The notes under the pieces were generated by a model, which did not search any database, had not been told where the DNA came from, and saw only the letters and a program-made list of their open reading frames with translations. This document shows positions 25,418 through 50,444 of a stretch of 64,000 nucleotides of DNA, piece by piece (within the stretch, counting starts at the first letter, position 1; every line of letters starts with the position of its first letter). This DNA is from Ignavibacteriota bacterium (GTDB lineage Bacteria > Bacteroidota > Ignavibacteria > SZUA-365). The stretch covers positions 248,001 through 312,000 of the forward strand of contig JACRFB010000001.1 of assembly GCA_016218045.1 (NCBI GenBank). The letters run 5' to 3'. The position numbers and the translations under genes were made by a program.

Positions 25418-26473
25418 ATGCCTGCTCCGAGTCACGTTCTTGTCATCAATCCGGGTTCCACATCTACTAAAATCGCCGTCTACCGGAACGAAAAACTGGC
25501 CGCGCAGGCCGATGTGAAACATGCGCCACCCCCGGGTGGAATCTGGGATGAATTTCCCACGCGTCTCGGGCAGATCCGAGCGGAGTTAAGCAAGCTCGGA
25601 GTTCGCGGAAACATCGATGCGGTGGCCGGTCGCGGTGGATTGTTGAAACCGGTTCAGGGCGGTACATACGCAGTAAACGACGCGATGCTGGCTGACGCGC
25701 ATGCGAATCTGCAGGGTGAGCACGCTTCGAATATGGGATGCGCCTTCGCGCACGCCCTCGCCTCGGAATGGTCCGTCCCCGCGTTTATCGTCGATCCCAT
25801 CTGTACAGATGAATTTGAACCTATTGCACGCTATTCGGGGCACCCTCTCATCCGGCGAAATGCACTCGCACATACACTGAACATGCATGCGGTTGCACGT
25901 GCAGCGGCCGGCAAGTTGGGGGTTCCATACGCCAAGAGCAACATCATCGTCGCACATTTGGGGGGAGGAATCTCGATAGGCCCCCTGAAGGGCGGCCGCA
26001 TCATCGATGTCAACGATGCGTCCAGCAACGGACCGTTCAGCCCTGATCGCACGGGAACACTGCCCCTGCAACAGTTCATCAAGCTTTGCTATTCCGGGAA
26101 GTACACTGAAACGGAAATGAAGAAGATGGTTATGGGCAAAGGCGGCCTCATTGCATACCTCGGCACGAATGATCTTCGACTCATCGAGGAACGTATTGCC
26201 GGAGGAGATCAGGAAGCTGCCGCTGTTGTCGATGCGATGTGTTATCAGATCGCGAAAGAAATTGGGTCCATGGCCGCTGTGCTCTCCGGTAAAGTGGACG
26301 CAATCGCCATGACTGGCGGATTGTCATATTCCAAGCGTGTTTTCACTTCGGTGAAACGACGCGTTTCGTGGATAGCACCGGTACTGAATTATGCCGGTGA
26401 GCACGAAATGCTCGCCCTCGCACTCGGTGCACTCCGTGTGCTCCGCGGTGAGGAAAAGGCGAAAGACTATTGA
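25418..26473 (+). CDS. buk: Butyrate kinase
   Basis: Converts acyl-phosphate (butyryl, isobutyryl, isovaleryl or similar) plus ADP to the free acid plus ATP. The ATG at 25418 gives 351 residues with CTGGAG upstream; the longer frame to 25316 is unlikely. The acetokinase-family signature VLVINPGSTSTK is at the N-terminus, and the second signature, VAHLGGGISIGPLKGGRIID, lies near residue 180. The length and the lack of acetate-kinase-specific segments favour butyrate kinase. It is the first of three genes with an IorA-like protein and an IorB-phosphotransacylase fusion, which points to substrate-level phosphorylation from a 2-oxoacid-derived acyl-CoA. Confidence 0.93.
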   Translation: MPAPSHVLVINPGSTSTKIAVYRNEKLAAQADVKHAPPPGGIWDEFPTRLGQIRAELSKLGVRGNIDAVAGRGGLLKPVQGGTYAVNDAMLADAHANLQGEHASNMGCAFAHALASEWSVPAFIVDPICTDEFEPIARYSGHPLIRRNALAHTLNMHAVARAAAGKLGVPYAKSNIIVAHLGGGISIGPLKGGRIIDVNDASSNGPFSPDRTGTLPLQQFIKLCYSGKYTETEMKKMVMGKGGLIAYLGTNDLRLIEERIAGGDQEAAAVVDAMCYQIAKEIGSMAAVLSGKVDAIAMTGGLSYSKRVFTSVKRRVSWIAPVLNYAGEHEMLALALGALRVLRGEEKAKDY

Positions 26474-26549: not shown

Positions 26550-28052
26550 ATGAGAACACACGCGCTTCTCACTGGAAGCCAGGCCGTGGCACGCGGCGCA
26601 TATGAAGCAGGCGCAGCATATGCCATTGGGTTTCCCGGCTCCCCTATCAGTGATATCCTCCAGGCGGCTGACGACTTGGCGCCTCTTCGCGTACAACGCG
26701 CGCCCAACGAAAAAGTCGGGCTCGAAGTTGCTTTGGGAATAGCACAAGGTGGGAGCCGTGCACTTGCAGTCCTGAAGCACATCGGACTGAACATCGCCGC
26801 CGATCCCATCATTTCCTCCGCCTATAGCGGTGTGAATGCCGGCATGGTCATCGCAGCAGTGGATGATCCCGGGATGCTGTCCTCGATCAACGAACAGGAT
26901 ACGCGGCATTTCGCCCGTGCAGCCAAAATCCCGATGCTCGCACCATCGGAAGCGCAGGAGATTTCAGAATTTATTACGCTGGCATTTTCTCTCAGTGAAA
27001 AACACGACCTTCCCGTACTCGTGCGACTCACGACACGCCTCAGCAATACGCGTGGTATCTGCTCGCTGCAAGAGGCGCTCGGCGGCAGCGCGAAACAACG
27101 CGGTTTGAAGGCGCCACGAAGCGCGCGTGAGGGTATGAACAGACATGAGCATATCGAGAAGCAGCTCTCTGTCATCGAATCGTGGGCGAATCAGGCTTTT
27201 GATTTGAACTCAATTGACGTCGGTTCACCGGATGTGGGTATCATCACAAGCGGAATCTCGTATGTGTACGCGAAAGAAGTGCTGCCCGATGCATCCTTTC
27301 TCAAGCTGGGAATGATTCATCCGCTTCCACACAAGCTCATTTCTTACTTCGCCAGTCTCGTGAAGCGGCTCTATGTGATCGAAGAATTGGATCCCTTTCT
27401 CGAGGAGCAGATACGCGCAATGGGCATCGGCGTAATCGGGAAAGAGGTGTTTCCCCGGACGGGCGAACTGACCCCGGATGTCGTAGCCCGTGGACTTTCA
27501 GCGGAAGGTGCTGTCGCTCACGGGCTCACATCCGAACCTGTGCAGCTCCCTACACGTCAATCGACCTTGTGCCTCGGCTGCGCCCATCGCGGTCTTATGA
27601 ACGTATTCCAGCGGATGAAGCTTGAAGTTGTGGGAGACATCGGGTGTTTTAATCCTGGAGAGTTGCCTCCCGCCGATCCACAGGAGATGGACGCATGTTT
27701 TTGCATCGGCGCCAGCATGAGCGTCGCCTTCGGAATGTCATTAGCGCAAGGGGTATCCATTGCACAACGTACTGTCGCGGTCGTTTCTGGATCCACCTTC
27801 ATGCACTCAGGCCTACCCGCCTTAGCGAATATCGTGCAGAACCGGGGGACGGCGACGGTGTGTATCCTCGCAACACCAAGCAATGAAGCGGCAGCTTCCG
27901 TCGCTCCGGAGGTGGATTACCGCAAACTCTGCGAAGGAGTCGGTGTAAAGCGGATCCGGACTGTTCTTCCCGACGACGAACCGTCAATCGAGCAGGCCCT
28001 CCGCGAGGAGCTGACAGCCGAGGGCGTCTCGGTTATCATAAGCCAGATCTAA
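26550..28052 (+). CDS. Divergent IorA-like 2-oxoacid:ferredoxin oxidoreductase alpha subunit
   Basis: The ATG at 26550 (AGGA upstream) gives 500 residues. The N-terminal pyrimidine-binding domain matches IorA: LLTGSQAVARGAYEAG, GFPGSPISD, APNEKVGLEVALGIAQGG and DDPGMLSSINEQDTRHFARA. The C-terminal half has CLGCAHRG (about residue 340) and GDIGCFNPGEL. The thiamine diphosphate region is abnormal: the expected GDSTFFH reads SGSTFMH (Gly at about 414 replaces the metal-binding Asp), and the usual LDN after the next strand is LAT (about 440-442). The two [4Fe-4S] ferredoxin motifs at the normal IorA C-terminus are absent; the chain ends at GVSVIISQI. The reaction and cofactor are therefore uncertain. 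Confidence 0.8.
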   Translation: MRTHALLTGSQAVARGAYEAGAAYAIGFPGSPISDILQAADDLAPLRVQRAPNEKVGLEVALGIAQGGSRALAVLKHIGLNIAADPIISSAYSGVNAGMVIAAVDDPGMLSSINEQDTRHFARAAKIPMLAPSEAQEISEFITLAFSLSEKHDLPVLVRLTTRLSNTRGICSLQEALGGSAKQRGLKAPRSAREGMNRHEHIEKQLSVIESWANQAFDLNSIDVGSPDVGIITSGISYVYAKEVLPDASFLKLGMIHPLPHKLISYFASLVKRLYVIEELDPFLEEQIRAMGIGVIGKEVFPRTGELTPDVVARGLSAEGAVAHGLTSEPVQLPTRQSTLCLGCAHRGLMNVFQRMKLEVVGDIGCFNPGELPPADPQEMDACFCIGASMSVAFGMSLAQGVSIAQRTVAVVSGSTFMHSGLPALANIVQNRGTATVCILATPSNEAAASVAPEVDYRKLCEGVGVKRIRTVLPDDEPSIEQALREELTAEGVSVIISQI

Positions 28053-28097: not shown

Positions 28098-29663
28098 ATG
28101 AATACAGTCAACGTAATCCTCTGCGGTGTCGGAGGACAGGGCGTCCTCGACGCCGGCGAATTGTTGAGTCTCGCCGCAATGCATGCTGGGTACGATGTAA
28201 AAATGAGCACGCTGCAATACTCAGAAAACCATGGAGAAAGCGTCTCGTGTCATATTCGGTGGGGTGAGAAAATTTACTCTCCAACCATCCGACAGGGTGA
28301 AGCAGATTTTATTCTGTCACTCGAACGCATGGAAACGCTTCGGCATCTTCCGATGGGGAAGAGCGGCGTGGCAGTCATTGTCAATGATGAGAAAATCGGA
28401 ATGCCTGCAGGCATCACCGAATCGGTCCCGTACCCCGAAAACATCGAAGACTTGGTTGCCAGTGTCCACGGCTCATTCCATATGCTGCCTGTTCGAGACA
28501 TCGCGGGTGAAGGAAAGGGTCTTGACGCGACGGTACTGCTAGGCGCATTTGCCGCATTCAATCAATGTACTCCCGAAGCCTGGATGCGCGCCATCGATGA
28601 ATGGGGGGGAACCGATGCGCCGCTGCACCACGAGGCATTTGGTCGTGGCCAATCGTTCGCGGCTGAACCTCTGCGTATCGAAGTGCACGAACGGTTCGAA
28701 TTGCCCGAGGGCCCCACAACCAAGGGCATCAGGAGTTTTGACGAGATGCTCGACCGTGTGCGCACACTTCCGAAGCGCCGCGTTTCGATAGCCGGGGCAG
28801 AGAATAAAGCAGCGTTCCATGCAGGGATCGAATGTGTGGATCTCGGATTGGGCACACCCGTATTTGTCGGTAATCCCGACATCATTCGCAAGACCGCTGC
28901 GGATAATTATCCCGAATTTCCGATCCAGAATTACGAAATAGTCGAAGCGGTCGACGAGACCGCCACCGCGGAACGTGCAGTCGCGATCGTAAGGAACGGC
29001 GAGGCCGACATTCTCCTCAAGGGCGGAGTAAATACACCAACGCTGATGCGCGCTGTGCTGAACGGAAAGACCGGACTTCGCGCGGGAAGTCTGCTCAGTG
29101 ATACTTTCGTGTTCGAATATCCGGACGAGGACGGAATTCGTCTGGTCATGATCACCGATGGTGGGGTGACATTACAGCCGACCATACAGCAAAAGGTCGA
29201 GATCCTCCGTAACGCCGTCGTTGTTGCACATGCTCTAGGGAATGAGATGCCCCGCGTGGCGATTCTTGCAGCATCCGAGACCATCAATCCCAATGTCGCC
29301 GCGACGATGGATGCAGCCGTCATTCAAAAAATGAATCGGACAGGACAGATCCCAGGCTGCATTGTGGAAGGACCCATCGCACTCGATGTTGCAGTGAGCC
29401 GCAAAGCCGCCGCGATTAAAGGAACCGATTCACCTGTCGCTGGCCAGGCCGACATTCTCGTTGCCGCAAACATCGATACGGCAAACGCTCTCGCGAAAAG
29501 CACAACCTATTTTGCCGGTTATCGCCTGTCGCACGTGATTGTCGGTGGAACGGCTCCGATTCTTATTGCTTCGCGATCCGATACATCCGATGCAAAACTC
29601 CTGTCCGTGGCGCTCGGGAGTCTGATGGCAAAGTACTTCGAGGAACAACGCGGGAGCCGTTAA
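28098..29663 (+). CDS. Fusion of IorB-like oxidoreductase subunit with phosphate butyryltransferase
   Basis: One uninterrupted 521-codon frame holding two enzymes. Residues 1-195 are the gamma-type domain of 2-oxoacid oxidoreductases (IorB): ILCGVGGQGVLDAGELLSLA, YDVKMSTLQYSENHGES and KIYSPTIRQGEADFILSLE. The usual GMAQRGG is YSENHGES. After a short linker, residues 211-521 form a complete phosphotransacylase of the phosphate butyryltransferase type: AGAENKAAFHAGIECVDLG, ILLKGGVNTPTLMRAVLNG, MITDGGVTLQPT and GPIALDVAVSRKAA, ending with PILIASRSDT. The fusion would place acyl-CoA formation beside its conversion to acyl-phosphate, feeding the butyrate kinase encoded two genes upstream. The reading frame is clean, with no sign of frameshift or assembly break. 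Confidence 0.88.
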   Translation: MNTVNVILCGVGGQGVLDAGELLSLAAMHAGYDVKMSTLQYSENHGESVSCHIRWGEKIYSPTIRQGEADFILSLERMETLRHLPMGKSGVAVIVNDEKIGMPAGITESVPYPENIEDLVASVHGSFHMLPVRDIAGEGKGLDATVLLGAFAAFNQCTPEAWMRAIDEWGGTDAPLHHEAFGRGQSFAAEPLRIEVHERFELPEGPTTKGIRSFDEMLDRVRTLPKRRVSIAGAENKAAFHAGIECVDLGLGTPVFVGNPDIIRKTAADNYPEFPIQNYEIVEAVDETATAERAVAIVRNGEADILLKGGVNTPTLMRAVLNGKTGLRAGSLLSDTFVFEYPDEDGIRLVMITDGGVTLQPTIQQKVEILRNAVVVAHALGNEMPRVAILAASETINPNVAATMDAAVIQKMNRTGQIPGCIVEGPIALDVAVSRKAAAIKGTDSPVAGQADILVAANIDTANALAKSTTYFAGYRLSHVIVGGTAPILIASRSDTSDAKLLSVALGSLMAKYFEEQRGSR

Positions 29664-41045: not shown

Positions 41046-44000
41046 TTACTTCAGCAGGGTCATCTTGCGAGTCTGCGTGAAGTCGCCAGCCACCATCTTG
41101 ATGATATAGTTGCCAGAAGGCATCTGCTGACCAAGATCGTTTGTGGCATCCCATGTGGCCTTGAACGAACCAGCGTCCTTGGTCTCATTGACGAGCGTCT
41201 TCACCGGGGTGCCGAGGAGGTCATAGACCACGATGGACACCGGAGCGGACTTCGGCAGCGAGTAGGAAATGGTTGTTGTCGGGTTGAACGGGTTCGGGTA
41301 GTTCTGACCAAGAGCGAATTCCTTCGGTGTCGCGACAGTCTCGTTGCCGAGGATCTTGTCGATGACGATGGTCAGGAGGTAACCCGGGCGGTTGTCCGCG
41401 TTCGGCGGCGTGCTCTTCGTCGTATAGAGGTCGTCGTACGCTTCAACGAACCAGTACATGGAGTACTGACGCGTATTGTTCGTGCCCGACATCTTGTAGA
41501 CGAGGCTCTGCAGCTGACCGTGGTTGGATGTGAACTTCGCGTCCATACCAAGACCATCAGACTCGAACCTTTCGGCGCGGGTGAGGCTTGTGCTGTCAAC
41601 GAAGACCACGTTGTAGCGGACGACATCCGTGAACTTCTCGTTCGGCTTGAGGGCCGACACGACGATATCGGTGTACGGATCCTGCGGCACTGCCTTGGTC
41701 CAAGTAAAGGTCTCGGTCTGGAGGGCCGTGATCAGCTTGAGCACAGTCGCATCAGCCGGAGCTGTAAGCGGGAATGTGTTCGGAGCGTGATCGAGGACTT
41801 CGTACGAATCAGTCTGGCCGTTGATGGCCGGGTTGGTTTCATTGTACGCGCGGATCCACTGGAGTTCCTGTGCACCCTTAACACGCGCGATACGCGATGC
41901 CACGAAGTAATTGGTCGGACCGGTGATGAAGACCGAGCCACTGAAGATGTCGGACAGGCCAGGGATAGTGTTATCGAACTCGCCGGGGAAGCGGGCCGTA
42001 AACTTCGTCTGGATCTGCGCGTTCGACACGTTCAAGAAGCGGTCACGCGGCGACACAATGATTTCGTAGAGACGCATCTTGTAAACCTTGCTCGGAACCG
42101 GATTCTGCGCGGAGGTGAGTTCGACGAGGTAGTTTGTGATACCACCGACGTTGAAGTTCATCTTTGCAGAGGTCTGGTTGAGACCCGCGAGGATCGGGCT
42201 GACATCGATCTGGATGCCGCGCTCGGCCTTCGTATGGGTGACCTTGATCTTCGCAACGCCGTCAACAAAGGCAGACGGATCGATCACGAAGTCATTCGGA
42301 CCGGCCTGAGTGAGGTTGGTTCCGTTATTGGTGATGACAGCCCAGGTGTAGCCGAGCTGATCAGCATTCCAGCTGCGGGAGCTGCTATCGGTGTTGGCAG
42401 TTGAGCCCTTCAGCGTGAGCGTCACGGGCACACCCTTGATGTTCCAGTCGCGGATGATGTTGCCATTCGCGTCCTTCGCAGTCAGGGTGAATTCAACTTC
42501 TTCACCGACCATCTTGTCGATGTCAGGATCAGCTGCGGTCGCGCTGATTTCCACTCCGCCCTTGTCGAGCTTGGTGAGATTCAGGTTGAACCAACGGCTG
42601 GCGAGCTCGTGCGGACGGCAGCCGAAGCGGCTCCACAGAGCTGTATCCGGACGGATGGTGCCATTCGGATCATAACGGAAGGTGACATCTTCCATCGGGA
42701 GGTTATCCGTCTGGTTGAAGTCTTTCACATACACCATCCAACGGATGATGACGGAGTCTGCACTTGTGCTGCTCGGATTCGTATCGAAACCGGCGAACAG
42801 GACATCAAGATCACTTGCGGTGAGCTGGGTGCCCGGCGTCGAACCGGCGTCTTTCACGATGATGGTACCAACAGGGGCACCCTTACCCGCCGGGAAGGTA
42901 CGAACGACTTCGCCAACCCACATGTAGGTAAGCGTATCGACAGTACGACCTGACGGATCGTCGATCCACGTCTGGGATCCACCGTTGTAGACCTTGAAGC
43001 CACCGATAAGGATGCCCTTATTGATGTTGCGGTCGGAGGCGGCGGTCCAGATCACCGGAACGGGCTGCGATGTCGGGCCAAGCGCACTAATCGTGGCGTT
43101 GTCGACGGGCTGCACCGCTGTCGGCGGATTTTCCGGAGCACGGTTGATGGAGACGATAAGAGCAGGGGTCGGAGGCGGATTGTTCCGGATCGTCGCACCC
43201 GCGGTATCGGAATACGTTTCGAGACCGGCCTTGTTGAAGGCACGGACGAACCACTTCACGCGCATGACAAGACTATCGTTGTTCGGCTGCGGCTGTACGT
43301 TCGGGCGGAACAGGAGAGCACGGAGCTGGTCGCCGGGCACAGTCAGGGTCGGGCTGACTCCGAGATTGTCGGAGAGCATGCTGACGACGAGCTGACCAGT
43401 ACCACCGGTACCAACACTGTCAATGATTCCGTACCATTCGTACTTCACAGTGTCATTCGGATTGTTCTTGCCGGGCACGTTGTTCCAGCGCGACGGGGTC
43501 CACTGCAGACGAAGGATATCGTCGGCAAGGCTGTTCGGCGGCTGGCAACCGGCTGTGCGGTCGAGACGGAAGAGAGTACGGTTCTGGGCCGTTGTTGTGC
43601 TAAGCACAAACGGTGCGGGCGCGAAGGCCTGCTTCACCCAGACCGGACGGCTGGAGACGACATTGGCCGGAAGGAGACCATGCGGAATCTTCAGGAGACC
43701 AGGATCGCCAACAGCAAGCGTCAGACGCTTGTCATCCGGCTTGATACCGACGTATTCGTTACGCAGGTTGGCCTGCGGGAACGGATTGAAGATGCGGAGT
43801 GTATCCTGACGGAAGTTCGTATTGTCAAGACCATCCGGGACATTGATCGGTTTGGCACCGAACCAGTTGCCGCCACCGCGGATCATGAGCGTACCACTCG
43901 GCTCAAGATTCGTGAAGCTCCAATCTGTGAAACGGGCACCAATCTGCACGAACATGGTGTCTCGTGCGTTCATATTACCGTAACGATCGTACGGGGTGAC

Positions 44001-47000
44001 ATTGTACACGTAGCGGAAGTCGCGGAAGATGGTATCCGGACGCGCATACGGAGTGTTGGCGCTATTCGGAATCGCGTCGGTGGCACCGTGACGGATCTGA
44101 CCATAGAGACGTGTGAACATCTCCCAGTCGCTACCATCATGCATACCATCGGGATAGATACCGAGGTTTACGCGCGGAAGGGTATCGATGTCGGCCTGAA
44201 CCGGGAGGATACCCAGCGGCAGGCGGGTGTTGTCAAACATACCCTGGGCAGGATCAAAGCTGCTCGGGAAGATCGACAGATAGGCGATACGATAAGGAAC
44301 AACCACAAAGGTGTGGAGCAGTTTGCGGGAGGCAGTCGTACCGAAGAAGGAACGCGTCGCCGCGGCTTCCGGTGCGGTGTTTCCGAACTGCGAAGGAACA
44401 CCCTTGTTAGCATACGGAAGTTCAGAAACCGACTGAGCTGTGACGTTCGGACCGAGGATACCATCCTCAATACCGTCGCCGCCTCTCCAGTAGGTGTCAT
44501 CCAAATGCCAGAAGTTGTTCGCAATACGCTGGGCCTTGCGAACGACTGTCCACTTGCCCTGATCGTAGCTACACGTATCGTCAACCATCTGACCGGCTTT
44601 GTCAGTCAGGGTCGGATCGACAACGCGAAGGTCAACGACCTGCTCGGCCGTCGAGTCAATCAGACGAACGAATGCGCCAGGGGCAATCGGCAGCTGTGTA
44701 CCGCTGCTGATACCAAAGGCACCGGCGATCGTCAGAACGCGGCGGTTGAAGTCGCCATTGAAAAGGTTGCCATTGGCATCCTGGCCACCCCACACACCGA
44801 TGGCGGTCCGCGTACGGGCCATGCCATTCAGACCGGCGATGGTATAGTCGTCTGCACCCCAGCTGCTGACGCCGAGACGGGTGACGCGATCGAAGTCACC
44901 GCCGTTGGTCTGGGGAGCGTAGCTACCCGGACGGCCGCGATCCGTAAACGTACCCATGAGCTCGCCGCGCACGGAGTTGTTCTTTGCACCACCAAACGAG
45001 GGACTGGTATAGGTATACACCGAGTCAGCATACAGGCGGCTGCCGTAGACGCGGGTCTGGCCCGGCTGCGTATTGACACCCGTGAACTTGCTCAGATCAT
45101 ACGCTGCACCACCGGTCGGGGGATTGTTTTCCCAGATCGGAGTCACGCGAAGGAGGGTAGGACGCTGGTTCTGCGCACGGCCGCCGGCGATGTGCCAACC
45201 GATACCCTGATAGTTCAGAGTGCCGTATGCAGTGGTAAGCGGATTGAGATCATAGATGTTTCCGCCACCAGCCATGGTGATATCGAAGAAGAAGGTCGGG
45301 TTATCCGAGCGGACGCCAGGAATGGTGTACCCGAGCTTCACGATCATGTTGTCGTTGATGACGTTGAACGCATTGTTCGGTGCGGTCAACGGGCTGAGGT
45401 TGTTATACACATCGAGCTTCTGGAACACGGGGAGACCCGAGGCAGGATGACGCTCGAAGTTCGGGTTGATCGACGTGGCATCTTTGTCAAGATACAGCGG
45501 ATCACCATCGCGGTCGACCGGCACGTTGTCGGGATTGACAACGAGGTACTTACCGACCATCGAGTTGCTCACGTTGCGCTTGTATGCCTGGCTGATCATG
45601 ATGTTGTCGACACCAACTGCCGAGAAATCGTGCTGGATCGGATCCGCACCGGCCGGGAGACCGATCTGCGCAGCACCGATGGAACGATTCTCAGGCTCAC
45701 CGACTCCAATCCAACGACCGGCCTGCGACTGCAGATATTCCTGGCCCGCGCGGAGAATGTCGAAGCGGGTCGGCTGCTTGGTCACGGACACGACGCGGCA
45801 GGTGTCGCGAATGATGTCTGTTGCGCCCGGACGGGAAAGATCGGGCCATGCGTCAGCCCATGCTTCAAAGTACATCGTGGTTCCCGCCGTCTTCGGCGTC
45901 GGGAATTCGAGTGCTGTGAAGTAGGACGTCTGGTTGATGTGCACACCCGAGACCAGATTGCTGATCTGCGTGTGGCGATAACGCGCTTTGCGCATCGGAC
46001 CGAACTCATCACGAGTCCAGGAACCGGCGGGCATGATTGTTCCACCCGGTGCATTGTACGGTGCCGGCAGGGTACCGAAGTTCGGGCCCCACGCGCGGAA
46101 CTTGATGCGGGCGGTGTCAATGACGTTACCAACATTGTTGCGATCGTACGGCGGCTTCAGCTGGAGTTCGACCAGGTTGCCAAAACGATCATACTCGCGG
46201 GCAAGAAGTGCCACGGTACGGCCGGCGGTAACCGAGTTTACGCTCTGCGGATCGGCATCCGTAAGATTCAGGGTGTCAACAATGTACGGACGGATATTCG
46301 AGTTCGCCATGCGGCCAAGGTGGGTCGCACGCTGCTCAACAAAGAACGGGTTGGCCGAATAGCCGTGGAAATACGGCGCATAGCCAGCACCACGCGAATC
46401 AGGATAGATGCTCACGTGCTCGAGCGACTGCATGCTGATAAGATCCGTCGGAAGCGGAACCGGGGAGGTCGCCGCTGCGGTGTACGGATAAATCTGCACG
46501 CGCACTGTCGGACCGGAGGTCAGATAGAGCGGCACGATAACACGCGGGGCATAGCCGCGGCGGCTTTCACCGACCGCGGTGCCTTCACCAAGGTTACGAC
46601 CATTCGGGGAAAGGTCGAAAGCCAGGGTGTCGGGAGTAAGGGCAATACGAACGAGCTGGTGTGCAACGCGGCCGGAGACATAGTATGCAGTCACCCAACC
46701 AGCGGTGGCGGTATCACCAATCGTGGAACGCTTGAGAGTATCGTCGGAAACGAAAGTACGACCGAACTCACCAAAGCCACCACGCTGCGCGTTGTTCTGC
46801 AGCTGGGTCTTCGGAAGGGTGATCGGAAGCGTTTCGCTTTCAATGTAGAACTTCACCAGACGACCACCGACCGGGTTGTTATACTGGTCGAGGAGACGCG
46901 CGATGATACGCATCTGCTGGTTGTGCTCGGAAACCATGACGGTGTCCATCGGGATCGGAGCGGTGCAATCGCCATCGAGGCTCACATCGCTGGCAAGGAA

Positions 47001-50000
47001 GCCACCGATACCGCGGTTAACCGGCTCGAGAGGAGTCGGGAACGCGATGCCCGTTGTCGGAGGAACAGCACCGATTGCGCGGAAGAAATATCCGCGATAG
47101 AACTCGGAACCTTCAGCGGCGTCACGCGGCGTACCGGTGGAATACCAAGCGGCCAACGCATCGTTCGCTGTGATCGGGCTCCAGCCTTCCATCGGCGTCT
47201 GCGTTCCGGCCGGCTTGCCCCACGACTTGAAGATTTCAACGTTCTGAACAACGTCAGGAATGATGCTGACTTCTGCGAAACCACTGGTAAGGCTGAAGTC
47301 GCCAACATTCGGAATGTTCGTGTTGATGTTGAGATGCGCGCGGAGACGGATCACGTCTGTTCCGGCGAGGCTCAGCTTCGTCACGTTTTTCGGAGCGCGG
47401 AGGTAGAAACGCACCGCGTTGTAGTCCTGAAGCGCAGGGATGTCACCCTGAATGCCGGGAAGACCCTGGCCGGCTTTCACCAGCACGAGTTCGGCATTGA
47501 GGATCTGACCCGCGTTCGGGAGACCAACCGGAATCGCCGGATCGAAACCAGCGGGGTTGGACGGATTGTCGTAAGGAACCGGCGAACCGGCGCCACGCCA
47601 TGCGACGTTCGGCGACACGCTACCGAAGAACACCTTCGTCGTCAGACCAGCGTTGAACGCGTCGACGAGCGGGGGATTGTCCGGAAGCTCGACCCACACC
47701 TTGTTCTGCTGGCGGTCGGTCGCATTGAAGTACGGAGCGATGTCTTTCGCATCGCCATGGCTGTTCGTCAAACGAACATACAGCTTGTCATAGATCTGCT
47801 TCGGCGCACCCGGACGGGTGAACGGACCGACGCTACCGACGACGAGCGCATCGCCCGTGCCGGTTACAACTTCAACGCGCGGATTGACCGGGAAGAAGAA
47901 GTAGTCATCGCCATTCCAGTACACGTCGGTGGAATCCATCGCCGTTGTCTGGAGGGTCGGGCGGCCAAGCTTGGCGTTGTAGCCAGTACCCGGACCAAAC
48001 CACACACCCCAATTGTTGTTGGGCGAACCGTCCTTGATGAGGTACGTGTGCGCAAATCCGGGACCCGGATTCGGATCGTACTTCAGAGGATCGCGAAGAT
48101 CGCTGTAACGATCATTGAAGGTGTAGCTGGCGCGGACGCGGATACGATATGCACCTGCGTTGTTGCTTCCAGTTGCAGCCTGGAATACGCGCGTGGCCAT
48201 ACCCATCGCACCGCGATTCGGATCGGCATACGCAGCAACGCGACCGGAGTCAGCACCCGGGTTACCGGACACGACCACGTTCGGAACGTACGTAACGAGC
48301 GAATCGAAGGTACCGTTCAGACGGTACGCAACTGTGCTGGGCGGATTCGTGAAGGTCAGATGACCAAACGGGCTGAGCTCGAACTTGAACGGCTCGTTGT
48401 CATCAACCGTGTTGCCGTAACCGTCATAGACCTTGATGTCCATACGGAGGAAACGGCGATCGGCTGTGTTCTTCCAAGCATCACGCGATTCGATGTCGAT
48501 GACACGCGGAATGTTCGGACGAACGGTGATCTTCAATCCCGTCGGCGGAAGGTGATTGAGGCCTGCCGGATCGACAGGATCACGGTTCGGATCCACCTGC
48601 CACTGCACGCTTGTGCGTGTGGAGTTGTCAAGAAGAGCTTCCGTTGCACGAATGCTGTAGGAGTAGTTCTTCGGGAAACCACCGGAGGTATCCGGGAGAG
48701 CATTGAGGCCCTGGAGTGTGCCACCCTGGCCATCAAAGTATACTGTTGCTTCGGCAACGATGCGGACGGAGTCCTCAACGCCACCGGGGTTGCTTCCAAC
48801 GTCAGCATGCGTGAACGCAAGACGACGGAACACGACCTGACCATACTGACGAAGAGTATCGTCGGCGGCCTGGTATCCCTTCAGGTAGATGGTTGCATCT
48901 TCGCCCTGCGGGGTGTTTTTCGTGTAAAGAAGCGCTTTCAGTTTCGGCTGAGTCATGCGATCCCATGTGCGGTTGCCCCAACCATCGAAGAAGCGAAGGG
49001 TATCAACAGCAGAGGACACAAGGCCCGGCTGATACGGATTGTGCGTCACAGCGTATTCACCAACACGATACGGCGGAATCTGGCCGAACTCGGGGTTCGG
49101 ATTGCTTCCTGCATCGCCCGGGAAAGCCGGGTACACATTCGGGAAATTCTCGTTGTACCAGTACGGCGCGAGGGCCTGATACAGATTTGTAAACTTGATC
49201 GGGTTGCGCTCGGGCGGGAAGCCGTCGACCATCATTCCATAGTCAGGATTGACAATGGTGGTGAGGCCGAACGTGCGGGTTGTGCCCGGACGAAGCTGAA
49301 GAGTCTGGCTCTGCGCGACGGGAAGCCCATCGTCGCCGAGGAAATAACGACCGCGGGAATAATCACCGAAGGAGCCGATGTACTCACCAGCGTCGACGGC
49401 CTGCGCGGAGTCATTCACCCACGCGATAACCTGCGTGGTTCCGGGAAGGAGACGGAAGATACCGAGATCGGTCTGGCTCACGACGTCGCCAGCGTTGGCG
49501 AGGTTCGCGACGTTACCAATCACATGATACGCGCGAAGGGTGTCCTTCGTCGTGTCAGGCGGTACGGCAAGACCGGTCAGGTTGTTGATGTTCGGTTTGA
49601 AGTAGACGTTGCGAAGCTGAATACCGTCGCCGGCGCCCGTCGGCTGAAGAACCTGGAACGTGAGCACCTGACGAATGACATTCGGGTCTTTCGGGAAGAA
49701 GGGGGACGAGGTCGCGATGTTGCCGACGCGGCGATACACCGGACGCAGGCCGATGGATCGACCGGTTACTGCGTTGTCGGTGCCGTAGACGGCTGTTGCA
49801 CCCACTGCTGTCACGACGTTGTTATACGCCTGACGGCCAAGGGTCATGCCCGGACTCGACGTGCTGATGCGCACGTTTGCGTAGTCAAACAGGTTACTCG
49901 TCAACATGTTGTTGACGATCTTGAACCTGTTCTGCACGAACATGATGACAACGGAGTCGCGATCGATGAAATTCTGAACACCACCGCCCATGTCGTACAC

Positions 50001-50159
50001 CGAAACGGTATCCGTAACGAACGTTACGGAGTCACGTGTCTGCTCGACATTCCGGGTGATGTTGAAAAAGTCGCCCTTCCCCGTCCTGAGCTGCGCCTGT
50101 GCCGTCAGGCCGACGAGCACGAGAGCCAGGAAGGAGAGCAAGGTGAGGCTTTTTTTCAT
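41046..50159 (-). CDS. Giant (3037-residue) T9SS-exported surface protein, candidate surface-layer protein
   Basis: The ATG at 50159 has AGGAG nine bases upstream and a signal peptide (MKKSLTLLSFLALVLVGLTA), giving 3037 residues; an in-frame extension to 50273 is less likely. The bulk is beta-rich, with many aromatic, Asn and Pro residues and Ig/Fn3-like stretches in the C-terminal third, and no enzyme motif I recognise. It ends in a textbook T9SS tail (FALGQNYPNPFNPTTTISY ... VYDLLGTPVKTLV ... MPSGNYIIKMVAG). TTA, CTA and TCA codons are entirely absent over at least 2187 consecutive codons, a mark of strong codon selection and high expression. A long leader, a good ribosome site and a strong terminator agree. 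I infer an abundant surface or S-layer-like protein; no homologue is recognised. Confidence 0.85.
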   Translation of the reverse strand: MKKSLTLLSFLALVLVGLTAQAQLRTGKGDFFNITRNVEQTRDSVTFVTDTVSVYDMGGGVQNFIDRDSVVIMFVQNRFKIVNNMLTSNLFDYANVRISTSSPGMTLGRQAYNNVVTAVGATAVYGTDNAVTGRSIGLRPVYRRVGNIATSSPFFPKDPNVIRQVLTFQVLQPTGAGDGIQLRNVYFKPNINNLTGLAVPPDTTKDTLRAYHVIGNVANLANAGDVVSQTDLGIFRLLPGTTQVIAWVNDSAQAVDAGEYIGSFGDYSRGRYFLGDDGLPVAQSQTLQLRPGTTRTFGLTTIVNPDYGMMVDGFPPERNPIKFTNLYQALAPYWYNENFPNVYPAFPGDAGSNPNPEFGQIPPYRVGEYAVTHNPYQPGLVSSAVDTLRFFDGWGNRTWDRMTQPKLKALLYTKNTPQGEDATIYLKGYQAADDTLRQYGQVVFRRLAFTHADVGSNPGGVEDSVRIVAEATVYFDGQGGTLQGLNALPDTSGGFPKNYSYSIRATEALLDNSTRTSVQWQVDPNRDPVDPAGLNHLPPTGLKITVRPNIPRVIDIESRDAWKNTADRRFLRMDIKVYDGYGNTVDDNEPFKFELSPFGHLTFTNPPSTVAYRLNGTFDSLVTYVPNVVVSGNPGADSGRVAAYADPNRGAMGMATRVFQAATGSNNAGAYRIRVRASYTFNDRYSDLRDPLKYDPNPGPGFAHTYLIKDGSPNNNWGVWFGPGTGYNAKLGRPTLQTTAMDSTDVYWNGDDYFFFPVNPRVEVVTGTGDALVVGSVGPFTRPGAPKQIYDKLYVRLTNSHGDAKDIAPYFNATDRQQNKVWVELPDNPPLVDAFNAGLTTKVFFGSVSPNVAWRGAGSPVPYDNPSNPAGFDPAIPVGLPNAGQILNAELVLVKAGQGLPGIQGDIPALQDYNAVRFYLRAPKNVTKLSLAGTDVIRLRAHLNINTNIPNVGDFSLTSGFAEVSIIPDVVQNVEIFKSWGKPAGTQTPMEGWSPITANDALAAWYSTGTPRDAAEGSEFYRGYFFRAIGAVPPTTGIAFPTPLEPVNRGIGGFLASDVSLDGDCTAPIPMDTVMVSEHNQQMRIIARLLDQYNNPVGGRLVKFYIESETLPITLPKTQLQNNAQRGGFGEFGRTFVSDDTLKRSTIGDTATAGWVTAYYVSGRVAHQLVRIALTPDTLAFDLSPNGRNLGEGTAVGESRRGYAPRVIVPLYLTSGPTVRVQIYPYTAAATSPVPLPTDLISMQSLEHVSIYPDSRGAGYAPYFHGYSANPFFVEQRATHLGRMANSNIRPYIVDTLNLTDADPQSVNSVTAGRTVALLAREYDRFGNLVELQLKPPYDRNNVGNVIDTARIKFRAWGPNFGTLPAPYNAPGGTIMPAGSWTRDEFGPMRKARYRHTQISNLVSGVHINQTSYFTALEFPTPKTAGTTMYFEAWADAWPDLSRPGATDIIRDTCRVVSVTKQPTRFDILRAGQEYLQSQAGRWIGVGEPENRSIGAAQIGLPAGADPIQHDFSAVGVDNIMISQAYKRNVSNSMVGKYLVVNPDNVPVDRDGDPLYLDKDATSINPNFERHPASGLPVFQKLDVYNNLSPLTAPNNAFNVINDNMIVKLGYTIPGVRSDNPTFFFDITMAGGGNIYDLNPLTTAYGTLNYQGIGWHIAGGRAQNQRPTLLRVTPIWENNPPTGGAAYDLSKFTGVNTQPGQTRVYGSRLYADSVYTYTSPSFGGAKNNSVRGELMGTFTDRGRPGSYAPQTNGGDFDRVTRLGVSSWGADDYTIAGLNGMARTRTAIGVWGGQDANGNLFNGDFNRRVLTIAGAFGISSGTQLPIAPGAFVRLIDSTAEQVVDLRVVDPTLTDKAGQMVDDTCSYDQGKWTVVRKAQRIANNFWHLDDTYWRGGDGIEDGILGPNVTAQSVSELPYANKGVPSQFGNTAPEAAATRSFFGTTASRKLLHTFVVVPYRIAYLSIFPSSFDPAQGMFDNTRLPLGILPVQADIDTLPRVNLGIYPDGMHDGSDWEMFTRLYGQIRHGATDAIPNSANTPYARPDTIFRDFRYVYNVTPYDRYGNMNARDTMFVQIGARFTDWSFTNLEPSGTLMIRGGGNWFGAKPINVPDGLDNTNFRQDTLRIFNPFPQANLRNEYVGIKPDDKRLTLAVGDPGLLKIPHGLLPANVVSSRPVWVKQAFAPAPFVLSTTTAQNRTLFRLDRTAGCQPPNSLADDILRLQWTPSRWNNVPGKNNPNDTVKYEWYGIIDSVGTGGTGQLVVSMLSDNLGVSPTLTVPGDQLRALLFRPNVQPQPNNDSLVMRVKWFVRAFNKAGLETYSDTAGATIRNNPPPTPALIVSINRAPENPPTAVQPVDNATISALGPTSQPVPVIWTAASDRNINKGILIGGFKVYNGGSQTWIDDPSGRTVDTLTYMWVGEVVRTFPAGKGAPVGTIIVKDAGSTPGTQLTASDLDVLFAGFDTNPSSTSADSVIIRWMVYVKDFNQTDNLPMEDVTFRYDPNGTIRPDTALWSRFGCRPHELASRWFNLNLTKLDKGGVEISATAADPDIDKMVGEEVEFTLTAKDANGNIIRDWNIKGVPVTLTLKGSTANTDSSSRSWNADQLGYTWAVITNNGTNLTQAGPNDFVIDPSAFVDGVAKIKVTHTKAERGIQIDVSPILAGLNQTSAKMNFNVGGITNYLVELTSAQNPVPSKVYKMRLYEIIVSPRDRFLNVSNAQIQTKFTARFPGEFDNTIPGLSDIFSGSVFITGPTNYFVASRIARVKGAQELQWIRAYNETNPAINGQTDSYEVLDHAPNTFPLTAPADATVLKLITALQTETFTWTKAVPQDPYTDIVVSALKPNEKFTDVVRYNVVFVDSTSLTRAERFESDGLGMDAKFTSNHGQLQSLVYKMSGTNNTRQYSMYWFVEAYDDLYTTKSTPPNADNRPGYLLTIVIDKILGNETVATPKEFALGQNYPNPFNPTTTISYSLPKSAPVSIVVYDLLGTPVKTLVNETKDAGSFKATWDATNDLGQQMPSGNYIIKMVAGDFTQTRKMTLLK

Positions 50160-50444
50160 CCGAAAAATCTCCTGATTGTGAAATGGATTAGAAGGGATAG
50201 ACTGGTTGATGCATGCTGTGAAGATGTGTGTGCTTCCTAGCCGCTGCTCATTCAGTTCCTCCTGTGAATACATGAGACATTAGTTCCTTAGAAAATCCAG
50301 TTGAATTGTTTTGCGTCGTTGATAAGAAAATGAAGCCTTGTAATATAGAGCACGGGTACTTTCCAAACAACCGTATCACTCGTTTACCGCGCTCACCCGC
50401 GTCTGGACACGATCGGGGCAGAAATGATACTGCAACATCCTTGC

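Follow-up and report, generated by a model that had tools for sequence, protein, structure and literature searches.

Fusion of an IorB-type oxidoreductase subunit to phosphate butyryltransferase in Ignavibacteria, with a probably non-catalytic oxidoreductase in one lineage

The fusion gene and its operon compared with described systems

In Clostridium scatologenes, a 2-oxoacid:ferredoxin oxidoreductase, a phosphotransacylase and a kinase are encoded together as HpdDEFG-HpdJ-HpdK, and each step of this chemistry is thermodynamically reversible according to its authors (PMC13285125). Phosphotransacylase-type domains are also carried at the C-terminus of other enzymes, as in the MaoC-type enoyl-CoA hydratase/phosphate acetyltransferase fusions (NF006045) and in NADP malic enzymes, so that this kind of architecture is already known. 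The locus described here lies in a window of 64,000 nucleotides (the whole stretch of DNA analysed) from an Ignavibacteriota bacterium. It resembles the Hpd system in that genes for the same three activities, judged by homology, stand together, with Ptb-type and Buk-type enzymes accompanying an oxidoreductase. However, the Hpd proteins are separate and all active, and their four-subunit oxidoreductase belongs to a VOR-like cluster, whereas in the present case Ptb is joined to a gamma domain of the IOR type, and in the window the oxidoreductase site has been eroded. The three genes of an Hpd-like trio are thus found side by side, but the motif losses described below suggest that a catalytically competent oxidoreductase is not among their products. 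The IorB domain also differs from the N-terminal partners of the NF006045 fusions and of the NADP malic enzymes. The enzyme trio was known in unfused form, and phosphotransacylase fusions were known with other partners; what appears to be new is the IorB::Ptb fusion, of which we found no description in the literature searched, in agreement with the earlier note, whose author knew of none.

The fusion gene occupies positions 28098-29663 of the + strand, starts with ATG and is open over 521 codons with no internal stop. It encodes an IorB-type (POR gamma) domain (residues 1-190; 28098-28667, +), a linker of low conservation (residues 191-210; 28668-28727, +) and a strongly conserved Ptb domain (residues 211-521; 28728-29660, +). 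Pfam recognizes POR (PF01558) at residues 12-172 (E 6.4e-22) and PTA_PTB (PF01515) at residues 290-506 (E 1.4e-36). In NCBIfam, IorB models match residues 2-171, and positions 1-293 of the 294 of the Ptb model TIGR02706 are aligned to residues 214-510. The earlier note had read one frame joining the two domains, and this is borne out. Among solved structures, the closest match is 7vg9, a phosphate butyryltransferase (E 1.8e-62, residues 209-511). Five other genomes, designated G003, G012, G013, G014 and G022, also contain the fusion, at 48-64% overall identity; residues 181-210, around the linker, share 14-21% identity with G012 and G013 and 50% with G003. No stop or frameshift was found between the domains, and since the fusion is likewise uninterrupted in the five other genomes, with no stop inside any of the six genes, a frameshift or an assembly artefact is ruled out.

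Where the Ptb domain begins (28728-28748), an AGGAG sequence precedes ATG codon 217, which is in frame, by 10 bases; this codon is a possible internal start, with no consistent counterpart among the relatives. In the G022 fusion, codons 166-260 contain no in-frame ATG, GTG or TTG, so that Ptb is unlikely to be translated on its own from a usual start codon in that genome. The window protein also matches NF006045 (bifunctional enoyl-CoA hydratase/phosphate acetyltransferase) from residue 190 on, with 282.9 bits for a cut-off of 282. As this model is narrowly passed by a protein whose N-terminal half is a POR domain, automatic annotation may misname the fusion.

The fusion gene is the last of an operon-like row of three genes on the same strand. 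The row opens with butyrate kinase (buk; 25418-26473, +; 351 amino acids from the ATG at 25418), which scores 445 bits with TIGR02707 (cut-off 289) and hence belongs to the butyrate kinase family; the longest open reading frame begins at TTG 25316, and the start at 25418 was picked by alignment with relatives. Between buk and the fusion lies a gene for an IorA-like subunit with POR_N and TPP_enzyme_C domains (26550-28052, +; 500 amino acids from the ATG at 26550), whose start was chosen by alignment with G012 and G003, the longest frame, from 26391, overlapping buk. Upstream of buk are found queA on the opposite strand, then ispD, then an rsmI-like gene, labelled from its sequence, and the gene downstream of the fusion matches Methyltransf_16. 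The window proteins resemble IorAB, since IorA matches TIGR03336 over 495 residues and IorB matches TIGR03334 over about 150. They differ from it in having lost cofactor residues and the ferredoxin domain, and their scores fall below the curated cut-offs (420 bits vs 651 for IorA, 92 vs 206 for IorB). Free buk-ptb pairs of the class (for example in G018, G031, G035 and G040) are adjacent and about 48-60% identical to the window's genes, but are unfused, and the flanks fetched contain neither iorA nor iorB.

Distribution and origin of the fusion

The fusion was found in 6 of the 391 genomes sampled from the class. The window genome (G000) and G003 belong to one family, G012, G013 and G014 to the same order, and G022 to another order of the class. 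All six have the gene order buk, iorA, iorB::ptb, and in G022 a gene for DUF1573/HYDIN-like Ig domains (L040:7657-8382) sits between iorA and iorB::ptb. The ispD-queA neighbourhood is common to the window, G003 and G014. Of the remaining Ptb genes inspected in the class, nearly all adjoin buk, and their flanks lack iorA and iorB. Whole-genome sampling covered this phylum, and the phylum sample contained no fusion other than the window's own; a widespread and already known architecture, which the earlier note had allowed for, was therefore not seen. None of 72,556 plasmid records covered 80% of the fusion query in one place, and the viral contigs scanned yielded no relatives, a weak negative. 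A single-protein scan of genome contigs returned IorB-like matches only, in a Sedimentisphaerales MAG and a Verrucomicrobia MAG, and is also a weak negative because it relied on exact peptide patterns. The window genome itself (4.77 Mb in 72 contigs) encodes at least 150 type IX sorting domains, fitting a Bacteroidota-like organism.

The fused Ptbs group together in a single clade (SH-aLRT 99), as do the IorAs of the operon (100/99), within which the window, G012 and G003 form a subclade (100/100). A single origin is the simplest reading of these two monophyletic groups, which suggests that the fusion operon arose once. In the Buk tree, the G022 copy is placed outside the other five fusion-locus copies, and the G022 kinase may therefore have a different history.

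The Ptb and Buk sequences are intact. The Ptb domain is full-length, as judged against TIGR02706 and 7vg9, with its conserved residues present, and a set of 26 free Ptbs together with 7vg9 defines near-invariant columns, at which the residue is either retained in the fused Ptbs or replaced, mostly in a conservative way. Changes in Buk at conserved columns are also mostly conservative, and degradation of either enzyme was rejected on these grounds. The window Ptb is 79-80% identical to those of G012 and G003, within a range of 54-80% for the five other fusion loci. Its score with TIGR02706 (288.9 bits) does not reach the butyryl-specific cut-off of 410.5 bits.

Cofactor motifs and constraint in the oxidoreductase subunits

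In G013, G014 and G022, IorA keeps GYPGTP, NEKVALE, CPGC, GDIGC, GDSTF, DN.TAMTG and the ferredoxin cysteines, and IorB keeps GVGGQG and HGM(A/S)QRGG. In the window, the TPP-binding domain of the IorA-like subunit (27600-27899, +) is degenerate. GDS has become SGS (G414, codon 27789-27791), so that GDSTF reads SGSTF; DN has become AT (T442, codon 27873-27875), so that DN.TTAMTG reads ATPSNEAA and the TTAMTGHQ loop is gone. Structures of the Sulfolobus OFOR show a Mg2+ ion at the pyrophosphate of TPP, bound by the GDG motif and by Asn118 (PMC5020499). The Asp of GDS/GDG and the Asn are absent from the window IorA and intact in G013, G014, G022 and the canonical paralogs. Three of the four conserved cysteines, assigned as proximal [4Fe-4S] ligands from their alignment position, are kept, and the protein stops before the fourth (in ..PC..). 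In the IorB domain, HGMxQRGG, present in every intact and canonical IorB compared, is replaced by QYSENHGE at residues 40-47. The window IorA-like subunit also has no ferredoxin domain, and no ferredoxin gene that could substitute for it was found among the operon neighbours (Methyltransf_16 downstream, queA upstream). This last loss was rejected as proof of inactivity, since canonical IorAs of the family lack the domain and OFORs without it can be active (PMC5020499).

With the Mg-TPP Asp and Asn, the TTAMTG loop, the fourth cysteine and HGMxQRGG lost, an active 2-oxoacid oxidoreductase is unlikely in the window. The TPP-activating Glu (in NEKV), assigned by analogy to Glu294 of the Sulfolobus OFOR (PMC5020499), is kept in the window and in G012 and lost in G003; with this residue and three of the four cysteines remaining, the window IorA may have residual or altered cofactor binding. 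The losses in G012 resemble those of the window, and three conserved cysteines are retained there too. In G003, all the cysteines and the entire TPP-domain motif are lost. At 100 reference-invariant IorA positions we counted 23 changes in the window, 28 in G012 and 63 in G003, for 2-3 in the intact operon copies; as distant reference copies reach 14 and 27 in leave-one-out, the count alone is no proof and the identity of the lost residues decides. The Pfam scores follow the same division: POR gives 146 bits for G013 and 142 for G022 vs 79, 61 and 40 for the degenerate copies, and TPP_enzyme_C gives 86 and 84 bits vs 30, 36 and no match. The window's own matches (POR_N 31.7, TPP_enzyme_C 29.7 and POR 79 bits) are all above the Pfam cut-offs, though far under those of intact relatives. 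A single-sequence structure prediction (pLDDT 34) was set aside.

Divergence is unevenly spread over the degenerate operons. Window and G012 are 56% identical in IorA, 40% in IorB, 79% in Ptb and 68% in Buk, whereas in the intact pair G013 and G022 the four parts diverge alike (54-61%). Nevertheless, the three degenerate genomes, which represent three genera, all have an iorA frame uninterrupted for 477-509 codons, and the other same-strand frames contain 5-22 stops. Mismatches at the three codon positions amount to 0.36/0.24/0.66 between window and G012 and to 0.49/0.39/0.66 between window and G003, so that iorA still looks to be under coding constraint. The best-conserved part in this clade is the middle domain (residues 201-300; 27150-27449, +), which is 79% identical to G012 and 62% to G003, vs 63% and 11%, respectively, for residues 351-450 of the TPP domain. 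Between window and G003 the middle domain is better conserved than the TPP domain (Fisher p 5e-13). The intact and canonical pairs show the reverse, with 74/96 identities in the TPP domain vs 55/100 in the middle domain for the former and 83/99 vs 68/107 for the latter (Fisher p 0.0015 each). Per block of 50 residues, the middle domain is 76-82% identical between window and G012, vs 46-64% in the intact pair. As far as these alignments indicate, iorA is not simply decaying, and the TPP domain has given way to the middle domain as the more constrained part; read most simply, the middle domain would support a structural or regulatory role.

Proposed role of the operon

We propose that a functional 2-oxoacid:ferredoxin oxidoreductase of the arylpyruvate type (IOR) supplied the gamma-type subunit that was fused, once, to a phosphate butyryltransferase. 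In the form preserved in G013, G014 and G022, IorA and IorB would convert a 2-oxoacid, the presumed substrate, and CoA into acyl-CoA, CO2 and reduced ferredoxin; the attached Ptb would turn acyl-CoA and phosphate into acyl-phosphate, from which Buk, with ADP, would form the free acid and ATP. The direction of this chain is presumed as well, and it may also operate in reverse. The earlier note had proposed that the fusion physically couples acyl-CoA formation to phosphotransacylation. This can soundly be inferred for these three genomes, whose motifs are intact, and is not supported for the window, whose motifs are lost. In the lineage that comprises the window, G012 and G003, the active site of the oxidoreductase would have been lost, and IorA and the IorB domain would act as a non-catalytic partner of Ptb-Buk, as an assembly, docking or acyl-CoA-binding subunit, leaving only the Ptb and Buk steps, which would use acyl-CoA made elsewhere. 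Taken together, the fusion, the gene order, the residue losses, the intact Ptb and Buk and the shift of constraint make it probable that the fusion occurred once and that the window oxidoreductase is now a non-catalytic partner of an active Ptb-Buk. More tentatively, and with somewhat less than even confidence, the oxidoreductase may have been domesticated to a pseudoenzyme that assembles or regulates Ptb-Buk via IorB::Ptb, the middle domain being its newly constrained contact surface.

The window oxidoreductase might instead still be active, the fusion channelling acyl-CoA straight to Ptb. The gene order is that of the known oxidoreductase-Ptb-Buk trio (PMC13285125), intact fused relatives exist, three cysteines and the TPP-activating Glu are retained, and a missing ferredoxin domain, shared with the canonical IorA of the family, is compatible with function (PMC5020499). 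Against this, both Mg-TPP ligands are missing, together with the loop, the fourth cysteine and the IorB motif, and in G003 nearly the whole cofactor site is gone and the constraint on the TPP domain has collapsed, so that continued activity appears quite improbable to us. Catalysis of a new kind, such as CoA-thioester chemistry at the remaining Fe-S site, could be imagined from the three cysteines kept in the window and G012 and from the fold halves that are still recognised. We give it hardly any credence, since G003 has lost all the cysteines, so that an Fe-S role does not extend to the whole clade, and no new conserved catalytic-looking motif was identified.

Plain decay, with an oxidoreductase dying without a role and IorB kept only as the N-terminus of Ptb, deserves slightly more weight, although we consider it unlikely. 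Losses rise from the window to G012 to G003, the protein divergence of IorA and IorB is elevated, and a separate canonical IorAB with its TPP motif is encoded at G000:C43:31096-33131, rendering the activity redundant. However, decay does not account well for a separate iorA kept open in three genera despite the stops in its other frames, for its coding-like codon-position pattern, or for a middle domain more conserved between window and G012 than in the intact pair. For the preferred reading of a non-catalytic partner, the difficulty is that G003 could be further along plain decay, and that only three degenerate genomes are known. Between window and G012, the canonical paralogs are 75% (IorA) and 64% (IorB) identical. 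A C-terminal two-cluster ferredoxin domain is absent from the canonical IorAs of G012 and of the window's family (L098, L085-L094) and present in those of G013-G015.

In a few related genomes, three steps in the energy metabolism of amino acids (or branched acids) are thus joined physically, and the same operon offers a natural series from an intact fused enzyme to a cofactor-less one. Comparison of the G013 and window versions provides a way to ask whether the fusion channels substrate and why an oxidoreductase scaffold would persist without catalysis. It also follows that domain matches alone are unsafe ground for calling such operons active indolepyruvate oxidoreductases. Elsewhere in the window, an open reading frame of 3075 amino acids on the - strand (41046-50273) is overlapped in antisense by an open frame of 2186 amino acids on the + strand (43680-50240), an overlap of unusual length that probably follows mechanically from a large, repetitive gene.
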